Source of the DNA: a bacterium
GTDB taxonomy: Bacteria > ARS69
Assembly (NCBI GenBank): GCA_025774865.1
Contig: JALGZO010000602.1
Location: forward strand, 1-5,657
DNA length: 5,657 bases
Reading direction: 5' to 3'
Positions 916 through 5,657 of the stretch are shown here, one piece after another (the first letter of the stretch is position 1; each line of letters opens with the position of its first letter). Below the pieces are notes generated by a model that made no database searches, had not been told where the DNA came from, and was given only the letters and a program-made list of their open reading frames with translations. The position numbers and the translations under genes are program-made.

Positions 916-1005
916 CAGGTTCGGCCGAGCGGCGCCCGCCCGGTGATCACCCGCCAGAGTCGAATGGGTCCAGCGGACTCACGACGCCCCGCGCCTTCCG
1001 TCAAC

Positions 1006-1011
1006 GAGGAG
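1006..1011 (+). promoter_or_regulatory. Ribosome-binding site GAGGAG that fixes the start at 1021
   Basis: GAGGAG lies 9 bases upstream of the ATG at 1021. A GTG at 943 in the same frame would add 26 charged residues ahead of the signal peptide and has no comparable purine stretch before it. The 1021 start is therefore preferred. Confidence 0.75.
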
Positions 1012-1020
1012 CCCTTCACC

Positions 1021-3654
1021 ATGACCGCACCATCACTCGCCCGACTGGGGATTGTCGGAGCGCTCGCTCTGATCCTCGGCCAGCCTTCGAGCGCCGTAGG
1101 CCAGGATGCGTCAGCCGATCCCGTCTTTCCCGACTCGTTCGTTGACTCCCGAGGGCGCCTCGATCTCGATGCCCTCCTGGCCACCGGCTACGAGGGCCCC
1201 GTCGATCTCGACAGACTCCAGGTCAGCGGATCGACTCCCGTGACCCGTGAGCGGTTCGAGACCATCGAGGCGTTGGGCCGTTCCCCCGAGAGCGACCTCG
1301 ATCCACGCCATCACCGGTTCGCGAGCCCGCGTGGGGACCCCGCCTGTTGGGACGACCAGTTCCCGGCCCCCGGAATCTACGGCTGGGTCAACGCTGCCGT
1401 CGTCTATCAGGACGAACTGTACGTCGCCGGTTCGTTCTACGCCGCCGGGTTCCGCGCGGACAACGTAGCGGTCTGGGACGGTTCGTCCTGGAGCCCCGTG
1501 GGTACCGGAGTCAATGGCGAAGTGCATGCTCTCCTCGTCTGGGACGACAAACTGGTGGCCGGCGGCGAGTTCACGATCGCCGGCGGGGTCGCGGCGAACC
1601 GGGTGGCCGCCTGGAACGGTATCTCGTGGTCCGCGCTGGGCGCGGGAACCAGCGGGCCGGTGAGGGCGCTCGCCACTTGGCAGACCGATGATCTGTTCGT
1701 GACCGGAGACTTCATCGTGGCCGGCACGATCTACGCGAATCGGATCGCCCGCTGGGACCGGACGCAATGGACCGCCCTCGGTGACGGCCTCAACGCAGCG
1801 GGAAAGGCGCTCGTCGTACATGAGGACGAGGTCGTGGTGGCCGGGGAATTCACGGCAGCCGGAACGACAATCTCGAACGGCATCGCTTCTTGGGATGGCG
1901 CGAACTGGACGACGTTTGGCCCCGGGACCCCTGATGGCGGGATCCTCTCGCTCGTCGTTCATGGCGGTCAGTTGATCGCCGGCGGTCGGTTCGAGGAAAT
2001 CGGCCTCGCACAGGTCCCGTATCTCGCCGCCTGGGACGGCGCCGCGTGGGGCCCTCTCGGCGCCCCGCAGACCGGCGCGGTCGAGGAGATGATCACCATC
2101 GACGACAGTCTCTTCGTCTACGTGGGCCGACCCGCCGAACCGGGCGGCCTCTACGACGAGGTGGAAGTCCGCCGGTGGGACGGCGTCTCCTGGGCGAATC
2201 TCCTGAGCGAGAGCGACCTGGGGACGGCGGCGTTCACGATCTGGCAGGGCGACTTGACGATGTTCGTCGCAGTGGACCACGGGTTCGCGCTCGGCGCTCG
2301 CTGGACGGGACTCGACTGGGACTTGATCCGCGGACCGGGCATCGACGACGACGTCCGGGCCATGGCCGTCTACCAGGGGGATCTGATCGTCGCGGGGAGT
2401 TTCGACCAGGTGGGTTCGATCGGAGCCGCCGCGATCGCGCGTTGGAACGGCACCACCTGGTCGCCGCTGGGCGCGGGGATCGATGGCGAGGTGTTCGCTC
2501 TCTACGCCGATGGGACCGATCTCTACGTGGGTGGCTCCTTCACTCAAGCGGGCGGCGTTTCCGCCTCTGCCGCCGCCCGATGGGACGGCGCGAACTGGCA
2601 TGCACTCGGTTCGGGCCTCGCTGGGGACTCTCCGAGGGTGAACGCGATCGAGAAGCACGAGGGCCAGATGATCTTCGGCGGGTTGTTCGAGGCCGCTGGA
2701 GGGGTGGCGGCTCACGACATCGCGAAGTGGAACGGGGCGACCTGGGACAGCGTGGGATCCGTCGCCGAATTCTACGGCGTTTTCTCCCTGCTCTCGACGC
2801 CCGGTGGCCTGGTCGCCGGAACGGCTCACTACGACTCTCCGGTCTTTCTCTGGGACGGTGGCTCCTGGCTGGACCTCGGGTTCTATACGGCGGACTTCTC
2901 GCAGTCGGCCGTCGTCCACGCCCTCACCGTGTTCGAAGACGATCTCGTGATCGGCGGCTTCTTCGACGGCGAGAGCTACAACAACGGATACCACGGAATC
3001 GCCCGGTGGGACGGATTCGGCTGGGTGAATCTCGGCGTGTCTTTCGACGGGGGCAGTTGTGATTCCGATACCCCGGTCGTGAACGCACTGGTGGTTCACG
3101 ATGGCCAACTCGTCGCCGGGGGAGGCTTCGGCCTGGACGGAGTCTCCGGAGAAGTGAACATCGCCTCCTGGAACGGCATGAGCTGGTCCCCGATCGGCGG
3201 TGGGGTTTCCGAGAGCGAGACCTGCGGATCCGACGGAGGAATCCACTGCCTGGCCGGCTGGGGATCCCGTCTCGCGGTGGGGGGTGACTTCGGCCTAGCC
3301 GGAGAGACCGTCTCACACCACCTCGCCGTCTGGGATTGTTCGCCTCTCACCGGGATCGGCGGGACCGGCTTCGCGGTCAGCGGACTTCTCCCCGGGATCC
3401 CGAATCCGTTCGTCGACGCAACCTCGATCCGCTTCCGGCTGACCGAAACGGCGCAGGTCGATCTGGTCGTCTACGATGTCCAGGGGCGCCGGGTTCGCGC
3501 CCTGCGGTCGAAGGAGAGGCACACGGCCGGCCTCCACGTCGTTTCCTGGCACGGTCGGGACGACTCCGGACGGATCGTCTCCCCGGGCGTCTACTTCGTC
3601 CGGCTTCGTGCCGGCGAGACTACGGAGACCCGCAAGGTGACGCGGCTCCGCTGA
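1021..3654 (+). CDS. Secreted 14-repeat beta-propeller protein with C-terminal FlgD-Ig/type IX-like sorting domain
   Basis: An 877-residue exported protein. Residues 1-27 form a signal peptide: short n-region with Arg8, hydrophobic LGIVGALALILG, likely cleavage after Ala25-Val-Gly27. Residues of about 28-108 are a linker without recognised domain. From about 123 to 773 there are 14 copies of a repeat, 'V.AL.V....L.VGG.F..AGG.....IA.W[DN]G..W..LG.G', marked by Trp at 152, 198, 245, 291, 338, 386, 428, 475, 521, 570, 611, 663, 717 and 771. This spacing and strand pattern predict four-stranded propeller blades, loosely like kelch or Rax2-type repeats. Residues of about 784-877 form an Ig-like sorting domain of the FlgD type: PNPF at 794-797, then VYDVQGRRVRAL, then GVYFVRLRAG, ending RKVTRLR. 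In FCB bacteria such ends direct proteins through type IX secretion and are usually removed or anchored at the surface. No catalytic motif is seen; ligand and function are unknown. It appears to be transcribed alone, with its own leader and ribosome-binding site. Confidence 0.9.
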   Translation: MTAPSLARLGIVGALALILGQPSSAVGQDASADPVFPDSFVDSRGRLDLDALLATGYEGPVDLDRLQVSGSTPVTRERFETIEALGRSPESDLDPRHHRFASPRGDPACWDDQFPAPGIYGWVNAAVVYQDELYVAGSFYAAGFRADNVAVWDGSSWSPVGTGVNGEVHALLVWDDKLVAGGEFTIAGGVAANRVAAWNGISWSALGAGTSGPVRALATWQTDDLFVTGDFIVAGTIYANRIARWDRTQWTALGDGLNAAGKALVVHEDEVVVAGEFTAAGTTISNGIASWDGANWTTFGPGTPDGGILSLVVHGGQLIAGGRFEEIGLAQVPYLAAWDGAAWGPLGAPQTGAVEEMITIDDSLFVYVGRPAEPGGLYDEVEVRRWDGVSWANLLSESDLGTAAFTIWQGDLTMFVAVDHGFALGARWTGLDWDLIRGPGIDDDVRAMAVYQGDLIVAGSFDQVGSIGAAAIARWNGTTWSPLGAGIDGEVFALYADGTDLYVGGSFTQAGGVSASAAARWDGANWHALGSGLAGDSPRVNAIEKHEGQMIFGGLFEAAGGVAAHDIAKWNGATWDSVGSVAEFYGVFSLLSTPGGLVAGTAHYDSPVFLWDGGSWLDLGFYTADFSQSAVVHALTVFEDDLVIGGFFDGESYNNGYHGIARWDGFGWVNLGVSFDGGSCDSDTPVVNALVVHDGQLVAGGGFGLDGVSGEVNIASWNGMSWSPIGGGVSESETCGSDGGIHCLAGWGSRLAVGGDFGLAGETVSHHLAVWDCSPLTGIGGTGFAVSGLLPGIPNPFVDATSIRFRLTETAQVDLVVYDVQGRRVRALRSKERHTAGLHVVSWHGRDDSGRIVSPGVYFVRLRAGETTETRKVTRLR
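1387..3339 (+). repeat. Fourteen tandem protein repeats (propeller blades) of about 46 residues
   Basis: The Trp of each WDG/WNG motif is spaced 46, 47, 46, 47, 48, 42, 47, 46, 49, 41, 52, 54 and 54 residues from the next. Each unit has an 'L-x-V-x-G-G-x-F'-like strand, an 'A-x-W-D-G-x-x-W-x-x-L-G' strand pair and a glycine turn. Units 6, 7 and 11 have lost the GGxF part (VYVGRP, FVAVDHG and VAGTAHY in its place). Units 12-14 are longer because of insertions that carry Cys680, Cys735 and Cys743. The repeats are visible at protein level and only partly at DNA level: bases 1891-1908 and 2581-2598 are nearly identical. Confidence 0.88.
3372..3651 (+). other. C-terminal sorting/anchoring domain of the secreted protein (FlgD-Ig type)
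   Basis: This covers residues of about 785-877. Visible landmarks are GIPNPF, an IRFRL strand, VDLVVYDVQGRRVRAL, TAGLHVVSWHGRDDSG, GVYFVRLRAG and a basic end RKVTRLR. The order matches the Ig-like fold of FlgD C-terminal domains, which many non-Bacteroidota FCB bacteria place at the end of exported proteins as the counterpart of the type IX 'type A' sorting domain. It contains no cysteine and no membrane helix, so a Gram-positive or autotransporter style anchor is unlikely. Confidence 0.8.
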
Positions 3655-3822: not shown

Positions 3823-3828
3823 AGGAGG
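3823..3828 (+). promoter_or_regulatory. Consensus ribosome-binding site AGGAGG for the lipoprotein gene
   Basis: A full AGGAGG with a 6-base spacer precedes ATG 3835. It decides the start and puts the lipoprotein signal peptide at the very N-terminus, as expected. Confidence 0.8.
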
Positions 3829-3834
3829 CCCGCA

Positions 3835-4896
3835 ATGAGACAGGTTGGTCGTACTGGCCTCGCCTTCCAGGCCGGCGGTATCGCGCTCATCGCGGCGGGG
3901 CTGATCGGGTGTGACGAGGGAGGGGCAGATCCAGAGCCGGAACTGCCCGCGTTCCCGACGTTTTGGCAAAGCTGGTCACCAGCGTCTGAGCCAGCAGGGC
4001 CGGCGGCACTTGGCCTGGATCGCGAGTATCAGAGGCCGCTGCCTTACAATTGGTACAACCCGGAGCGTGTGGTCCGTCGTCGGGACGTGTTCCTCGAAAC
4101 ACGAGATCAATCTGAGGGCGAGGAGTTCCTTCGAGTCCTCGAGTTCGCAATCGCGACCGAGCGATCAGGCGACTGGGCGAGCCCAGACTCCTCGGGTTGG
4201 TTTGGCGTCATGCGGCAGCTTCCACCCGACTTGCAAGACCTCAGGGAAGCAACGTCGGTAGCGATTTGGGTCGACGACTTTGGGGCGTCTCGTGGTCGGA
4301 TGATTCTCGACCTCGGTGAGATCAGCGAGGATTTCTATGTCGAGACGACGAATCCTCAGAAAGGACGCGGGTGGCTCGACACCGAGGACATCGATCCGGA
4401 GGATGGCGAACTCACGGCGAGCCGGGAGGACTTCGGACTCGACAACATCCAGGCCGCCGATTCGGATCCACCGGCTCCGGGCGACGACGGCAACGACGAC
4501 TTCGTGCTCCCGGGTCAGGAGCCGCTCGATTACTCGCGAATCAACGGAACTGAGGGCAATGGACTGCTCGATACCGAGGATCTCGACGGCAACGACTTTC
4601 TCGATCAGGACAACATCTACGGAAGCTACGTGATTTCGCTGGGTGAGGATCCGGTCTCCCCCTATCTGGTGAAGGACAATGGCAACACGCCCGGCGGATC
4701 CCCGGGCAACACCTGGCGCTTGTTTCGGGTACCGCTCGATGAAGGTGTCCCGGTCGGCGGGACACCCCGTCTGGTTGGAGCCTACGTTCGCCTCTGGTTC
4801 GACGACTTGACGCCCGGCCCGGGCAAGAAGGTCCGAATAGCGGACATCGCCTTTGCCTGGGGGCAGGGGCGGGACTTCATGCTGCTGGGCCCGTGA
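3835..4896 (+). CDS. Stand-alone lipoprotein carrying a SprA/Sov-like segment
   Basis: A 353-residue predicted lipoprotein. Residues 1-26 form a type II signal peptide with Arg2/Arg6, hydrophobic IALIAAG and lipobox LIGC, so Cys26 would be lipidated. An acidic/Pro linker follows (about 27-60). From about 62 the sequence follows a segment of SprA, the large type IX secretion translocon barrel: WYNPERVVRRRDVF, LRVLEF, GWFGVMRQLP (W122-P131), a strand with VAIWVDDF, LDLGEISED (158-166), LDTEDID (181-187), EDFGLDN, LDTEDLDGNDFLDQDN (245-260), then WRLFRVPL, VGAYVRLWFDD and VRIADIAFAW (333-342). SprA has the same order: YNPxERG...LNPxxxWGGxMR...FWLxDP...LYFxLGxISED...DVEDxNxDNxxN...WYxFRIPI...RFxRMxLxGF. 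SprA is usually over 2000 residues, so this is one module made alone. Role is unknown; it may be an accessory periplasmic or surface partner of a SprA-type channel. The family call is from memory of motifs, not a search. Confidence 0.78.
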   Translation: MRQVGRTGLAFQAGGIALIAAGLIGCDEGGADPEPELPAFPTFWQSWSPASEPAGPAALGLDREYQRPLPYNWYNPERVVRRRDVFLETRDQSEGEEFLRVLEFAIATERSGDWASPDSSGWFGVMRQLPPDLQDLREATSVAIWVDDFGASRGRMILDLGEISEDFYVETTNPQKGRGWLDTEDIDPEDGELTASREDFGLDNIQAADSDPPAPGDDGNDDFVLPGQEPLDYSRINGTEGNGLLDTEDLDGNDFLDQDNIYGSYVISLGEDPVSPYLVKDNGNTPGGSPGNTWRLFRVPLDEGVPVGGTPRLVGAYVRLWFDDLTPGPGKKVRIADIAFAWGQGRDFMLLGP

Positions 4897-4904
4897 TGCC
4901 GGCG

Positions 4905-5657
4905 TCAGCGGAGAGAGGGGGCCGTGAGCCCTCCAGGAACCGGTCGAGACGACGGTGTCGTGTACCTGACCTCGATCTTGTACCTGCGGTCGCGGATCGC
5001 GAGCGCCGGCCACTTGAAGTAGATCCCAGGGTTGTGCTCGAGGAGCGGGGGCCCGCCCTTCTCGCCGGGGATAGCCATCAATGTCGAATCCCTGCCCGTG
5101 GCCACGGACTCCGGGCTCGCGATCACGTTGACACGCGACGAGTCGGGCGAGAACGGTGTGATGTTCGGAAAGGTGATCGTGCCTTCCTCGTAGTCGATGA
5201 ACTCGGGTTCGACAAAGTGATCCGGGTCCGGACCTGCCCGGCCGCGATGATCAAGGGCCATGATCTGCACGAAGGGGATCAGCTTACCTTCCTTGTCAAG
5301 CTGGTTCTCCTCTTCCTCCCCAGAGGCCGATGACGCCAGCCGCCAAATCACCAGTTCGAACGTGTCGGGCTCGATGTTGCGTGCGCCGAGAGAGTAGATA
5401 TTCTTCTGTTCGAGGTCGCGAGCCGGAGCGAACCCCCTGGCGTCTTCGTAAAGGTCCCGCTCCGGGGGAGCGAGGATCTGGAGACGCAGCGTGTCCATGT
5501 TTGCGCCGGCGCTCCCCAGGGAATCCCCGGTGATTCGCACCGCTGTCAGGGCTAGGATCTGGTTCGTCGGCAGGATCCGCTCGAGCGTGAGCGCCCCCGT
5601 CCGAGAATCGAAACTGTAGTCCTCGTTGATTCGCAGCCGATGGAACCTGCCGGGGAG
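4905..5657 (-). CDS. 3' part of a SprA/Sov-like gene (5' end outside window)
   Basis: The frame is open from the right edge (base 5657) to TGA at 4905-4907, giving the last 250 residues. The ATG at 5538-5540 is internal: 39 further codons upstream stay open and fit the family (RLRINEDYSFDSRTGALTL, then ILPTNQILALTAVRITGD). Landmarks match SprA in order: 'RRLxxGxDYxxxxxxGxIxL', '..DEVLAVAYxY', KNIYSLGARNIEPDTFELVI (the KNIYSLG of SprA's 'MMKNIYSLGA' is at 5385-5405), FVQIMALDHRG, then PDHFVEPEFIDYEEGTITFP (SprA 'PDGxFDFIxxxTIxxxxGxIxFP'), then RRYKIEVRYTT (SprA 'KNKFxIxGRYKS'). The product stops 16 residues later, where full SprA would continue with many more barrel and plug modules. It may therefore be a short paralogue, one part of a split SprA, or a truncated gene. 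SprA forms the outer-membrane channel for type IX cargo. A Glu/Asp-rich loop (SGEEEENQLDKEG) is an insertion-like feature. Promoter and start are not in view. Confidence 0.75.
   Translation of the reverse strand, partial: LPGRFHRLRINEDYSFDSRTGALTLERILPTNQILALTAVRITGDSLGSAGANMDTLRLQILAPPERDLYEDARGFAPARDLEQKNIYSLGARNIEPDTFELVIWRLASSASGEEEENQLDKEGKLIPFVQIMALDHRGRAGPDPDHFVEPEFIDYEEGTITFPNITPFSPDSSRVNVIASPESVATGRDSTLMAIPGEKGGPPLLEHNPGIYFKWPALAIRDRRYKIEVRYTTPSSRPVPGGLTAPSLR

Follow-up and report, generated by a model that had tools for sequence, protein, structure and literature searches.

Two convergent genes derived from SprA

The window analysed here is the entire contig C606 (5657 bp) of an assembly of 785 contigs that is 93% complete and 8.3% contaminated, and its phylum is sampled by five genomes from one family. 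At one end, a plus-strand frame (3–170) weakly matches the C-terminus of PorV/PorQ-family outer-membrane proteins (NF033709, 6.4e-4). A remnant of a phage-type integrase N-terminal SAM-like domain lies at 464–673 (−; PF14659, 6.8e-7), and no complete integrase was found on the contig. A Rax2-like beta-propeller cargo of the type IX secretion system (T9SS), with a type-A C-terminal sorting domain (CTD), is encoded at 943–3654 (+; Rax2 1.8e-19, TIGR04183 8.3e-10), directly upstream of the first of two genes related to the translocon protein SprA/Sov.

That gene (3835–4896, +) encodes 353 aa and is preceded by an AGGAGG ribosome-binding site at 3823–3828 (+), 6 nt before the ATG. The protein begins MRQVGRTGLAFQAGGIALIAAGLIGC and has the N-terminal signal and lipobox Cys of a bacterial lipoprotein: a signal peptide is predicted at 3835–3912 (+) by pattern match, ending in the strict lipobox LIGC at residue 26, the Cys predicted to be lipidated (codon 3910–3912). 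After a linker of 17 residues comes a complete module B (3961–4860, +), a CBM-like beta-sandwich equivalent to F. johnsoniae SprA 875–1260, and only 11 residues lie beyond the module. Our custom module-B profile matched it over positions 3–301 of 302 (i-E 4e-80), NCBIfam TIGR04189 (SprA/Sov) matched at E 1.6e-9 (35.5 bits, model 890–950 plus 1084–1158), and residues 46–338 align to the genome's own SprA 822–1117 with 60% identity.

The second gene (4905–5657, −) converges on the first, with a gap of 8 nt between the stops (4897–4904). Its 5′ end is cut by the contig end and 250 aa are visible, matching TIGR04189 at E 6.5e-13 (46.8 bits, model 372–544). It aligns to SprA 404–639 of the same genome with 77% identity, which is the visible portion of module A (SprA ~343–639; window 4950–5654, −; custom module-A profile, i-E 4e-52). 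The module ends at the boundary common to stand-alone (solo) module-A lipoproteins of another phylum. The gene probably also encodes a lipoprotein, its start lying beyond the contig end at 5657.

A preliminary description of this DNA had recognised two SprA pieces on opposite strands as separate genes, with stops 8 bases apart and with an AGGAGG and lipobox belonging to the plus-strand gene, and all of this is borne out. It had called the pieces consecutive in SprA, which is not strictly so, since 182 SprA residues lie between them. Nor does PF14349 (SprA_N), the Pfam family it named, match either protein; no Pfam family does, while the genome's full SprA has PF14349. Both TIGR04189 scores fall far under the curated whole-protein cut-off of 200 bits because the proteins are fragments. 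Modules A and B are homologous to SprA, and the large transmembrane beta-barrel of SprA/Sov is absent from the window genes as far as they are visible, the 5′ part of the minus-strand gene being off the contig.

An intact SprA in the same genome

The preliminary description had left it to be seen whether the genome also holds a full-length sprA, and it does. A TIGR04189 search of the genome found frames on C42 and C514 that together give a SprA of 2081 aa with every SprA segment; the C42 frame runs off its contig, and the 37 residues at its end are repeated exactly at the start of the C514 frame. The 182-residue stretch between the two pieces and the whole later barrel are missing from the window, where no match to the 'mid', module-C or barrel profiles was found and neither visible piece holds barrel sequence. 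Given this intact SprA, the earlier proposal of a split type IX translocon is not supported; nor is the idea that a lipoprotein supplies a module to a shorter barrel, since the visible minus-strand gene is module A only and ends before any barrel segment.

No second SprA-type barrel was found in the genome, in which, besides the one SprA and the window pieces, TIGR04189 gave only a weak match on C508. We rejected the C508 ORF (1101 aa) as a second SprA, as it is a separate conserved protein with 'mid'-type repeats. This protein (L027:565–3870, −) twice weakly matches the part of SprA that separates modules A and B, and similar frames also occur in G001, G002 and G003, making it a conserved SprA-related repeat protein. 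The three family relatives G002–G004 each have one SprA and no extra copies of SprA modules.

Solo modules recur in other phyla

We searched genomes of other phyla with the two module profiles. Full-length SprA occurs once per genome as a rule, with a second, short gene matching the module-B profile in a few. In the best-sampled phylum, that of G029 (69 genomes of at least 80% completeness), solo B genes were found in G113, G117, G119 and G122. The phylum of G049 contributed one in G187 and a degenerate copy in G192, and there were none in 17 genomes from the phylum of G007. Within the phylum of G029, the module-A profile found solo A genes in G106, G115, G117, G122, G129, G130 and G139, and one fused to B in G119. 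In two other phyla, then, five genomes have a solo B and eight a solo A; for the phylum of G029 alone, a solo A or B is present in 9 of the 69 genomes. TIGR04189 matched all five solo proteins tested, including those of G117 (7.8e-23), G119 (1.5e-20), G187 (1.7e-12) and G122 (2.6e-6). This recurrence of solo lipoproteins with matching boundaries supports the suggestion, made at the outset, of a modular SprA-like system with a lipoprotein module. Short frames in G124, G180 and G118 were rejected as solos, being ordinary SprA genes that are frameshifted or at contig edges. The broken solo B of G192 (L087:7464–8206, +) is interrupted by stops, which suggests turnover of such genes.

Modules A and B co-occur in the window, G122, G119 and G117. 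They are neighbours overlapping by 8 nt in G122, and in G119 a single lipoprotein-type frame consists of a signal, A and B. Such pairing is what would be expected if the solos assembled with another barrel into a second SprA-like channel. However, most genomes with a solo gene have just one of the two modules, and the TIGR04189 search described above revealed no second barrel in the window's genome, so that we regard a truly split translocon as very improbable.

The same survey bears on the possibility of an assembly chimera, in which the minus-strand fragment would be the normal sprA of a close relative misjoined to the lipoprotein gene. The bin's contamination (8.3%) and its 785 contigs, the position of the minus-strand ORF at a contig edge, and its 79% DNA identity to sprA, as expected for another species of the genus, are all compatible with such an event. 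Against it, no sequence of 16 or more bases is shared with sprA at the junction, the minus-strand gene and the solo A genes alike terminate where module A ends, and adjoining A and B genes also occur in G122. We therefore think a chimera quite unlikely, and the lipoprotein gene itself would be unaffected by one. Nor is the solo set as a whole explained by assembly error, because the G113, G129 and G106 cases sit on contigs of 211, 115 and 75 kb and G139 is a single-contig genome. There is no need to invoke an ancestral sprA that was inverted, or joined in assembly, as the preliminary description had also considered, given that the genes end at natural module boundaries and that the contigs bearing solos range from 75 kb to 4.3 Mb.

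Solo proteins share a common anatomy

A hydrophobic stretch followed by a Cys at residues 21–46 was present at all 13 N-termini examined; five have a strict lipobox and the others are near misses. Each of the six B copies spans the complete module. In the five that are unfused, it begins 17–22 residues past the Cys and is followed by 0–11 residues. The unfused A copies, among them the one in the window, all end 0–14 residues beyond the same part of SprA. The proteins are ~330–380 aa long (661–683 aa if fused), have no barrel segment and are encoded in addition to a full-length SprA. Between 25 and 27 of 28 SprA-conserved residues are kept in the solo Bs. The only residue lost from all six is the last glycine, at which SprA exits to its next segment. 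Extra copies of SprA modules exist alongside an intact sprA, and the same modules recur in other phyla separately, paired and fused, with convergent boundaries.

Purifying selection and repeated origins

The coding sequences of the solo genes are under purifying selection. Neither window gene has an internal stop, and dN/dS between solo copies and their own genome's SprA was 0.22 (window A), 0.25 (window B), 0.15, 0.10, 0.15 and 0.32 (four other pairs) and ~0.55 in two further pairs, an overall pairwise range of 0.10–0.55 that also reflects SprA's own constraint. Arithmetic from the distances, taking G002 as the outgroup, indicates that the window's module A has changed in protein sequence ~3 times faster in dN than SprA, well below neutrality. 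Synonymous divergence from SprA is 0.65 for the window's A copy and 1.30 for its B copy, and because these values differ, the two may have had separate origins in time.

In phylogenetic trees, the window genes fall beside their own genome's SprA (support 97/93 for B and 97/100 to 99/100 for A), as do the solos of G117, G113 and G139. AU tests rejected one common origin for the solos, and with it a single solo clade (P = 0.0002 for B and 1e-6 for A), and the starred branches of the trees force at least five label changes for B and at least four for A. Some of these apparently separate origins could instead reflect gene conversion with the resident SprA. Solo A genes of four genomes form a clade (97/97), which shows that the solo gene has been inherited independently of sprA.

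These data weigh on a further explanation, that the window genes are fragments of a second sprA copy, partially duplicated, rearranged, without function and heading to loss. Both pieces are lineage-specific, none having been found in G002–G004, the minus-strand copy has evolved faster than SprA since the split, an integrase remnant lies on the same contig, and a degenerate solo copy is known in G192. Yet both genes lack internal stops and have low dN/dS, the plus-strand gene has its own ribosome-binding site, signal peptide and linker, the module boundaries agree with those of the separate solo genes found in other phyla, and the solo-A clade covers four genomes. Decay thus appears unlikely.

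Structural comparison and known systems

Structure prediction of the plus-strand protein alone, proposed as a check in the preliminary description, pointed to SprA: the model, though of low confidence (pLDDT 45), had four SprA entries as its four best PDB matches, with a VIA-align Z of 11.1 to 8gl6 chain A residues 875–1260. CBM28, CBM11, CBM27 and CBM30 sandwiches came next at Z 6–8, within the range given by unrelated models. The equally poor module-A model (pLDDT 46) had no usable structural match. Profiles searched against PDB sequences hit SprA only (module B, E 3.8e-33 at 875–1260; module A, 2.7e-18 at 433–628); they were required, as phmmer with the single window proteins gave only chance matches to the PDB.

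The resemblance to CBMs raises the question of recruitment to a task outside the T9SS, for instance the binding of surface glycans. Module B shares their beta-sandwich, and the solo Cys is followed by acidic residues reminiscent of the signal that exports Bacteroidota lipoproteins to the surface (PMC5080379); if it works in these phyla, such a signal would place the modules outside the cell. In contrast to a CBM, however, module B has no Pfam sequence match, and SprA fits it better (Z 11 against Z 6–8, values that unrelated models also give). Moreover, the residues kept are the SprA-conserved ones, and an export signal characterised in Bacteroidota may not hold here. We consider such recruitment improbable.

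Among known T9SS components, SprE/PorW, PorK/GldK and PorE are outer-membrane lipoproteins, as the solos are predicted to be, and have an established tie to the T9SS (PMC10994853, PMC7463736); unlike them, the solos have no TPR or other domain of those families and derive from the translocon. SprA/Sov itself (TIGR04189; PDB 6h3i, 8gl6, 8gl8) is the homologue of both modules, at F. johnsoniae SprA 433–628 for A and 875–1260 for B. The solos fall within the SprA clades of their own lineages, but differ from SprA in being short, lipoprotein-type and barrel-less.

A possible class of accessory secretion proteins

The T9SS is a major secretion system that has been little studied in these phyla. Little is known of what SprA's soluble modules do, and the protein's large size makes it hard to dissect. 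The window genes are very probably barrel-less, stand-alone copies of the soluble modules A and B of the genome's own SprA. How they act is more tentative. The solos would leave the cytoplasm through Sec, receive a lipid anchor and be kept at the outer membrane by the short linker, where the tethered modules may engage the partners used within SprA, namely the carrier, the cargo CTD, the plug or SprA itself. That they touch the same partners is the simplest inference because SprA-conserved residues are kept, and engagement of those partners at the outer membrane is our proposed mode of action, though we hold it with less than even confidence. The identity of the genes and this mode of action, taken together as one statement, we judge about evenly balanced. 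In F. johnsoniae, cargo is bound inside SprA via PorV extracellular loops and contacts the SprA cap (PMC10994853).

A solo protein might serve as an accessory receptor, an assembly aid or a competitor. The copies are dispensable, as all but 9 of the 69 genomes in the best-sampled phylum do without one. Their repeated appearance in at least three phyla nevertheless suggests an unrecognised class of accessory secretion proteins, and we found no published description of stand-alone SprA modules in the open-access literature. It is conceivable, if somewhat short of an even chance, that SprA-module lipoproteins form a new, repeatedly evolved class of T9SS accessories that tune the docking or leaving of particular carrier–cargo complexes, or act as decoys shielding the real translocon. 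By excising the same two modules on several occasions, evolution has provided exact boundaries and natural soluble constructs. If the solos do act on the T9SS, they would add a regulatory layer to this secretion system.

Genes neighbouring the solo loci

No consistent neighbour hinting at a role was found across the solo loci. The cargo gene next to the window's lipoprotein gene is tempting in this respect, but T9SS cargo genes adjoin 4–5 of 11 solo loci against 22% expected per locus (P = 0.07–0.2), which is not above chance because cargo genes are so numerous: 150 were scored in the window's genome and ~90–150 in each of the solo-carrying genomes examined. At individual loci, two further arrangements were seen. 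In G187, a gene that joins a PorV-family N-terminus to a long TPR array (L086:6963–9242, +) is convergent with the solo module-B gene, and in G117, a PAP2-family membrane protein gene (L098:1587–2420, +) overlaps the end of the solo module-A gene.
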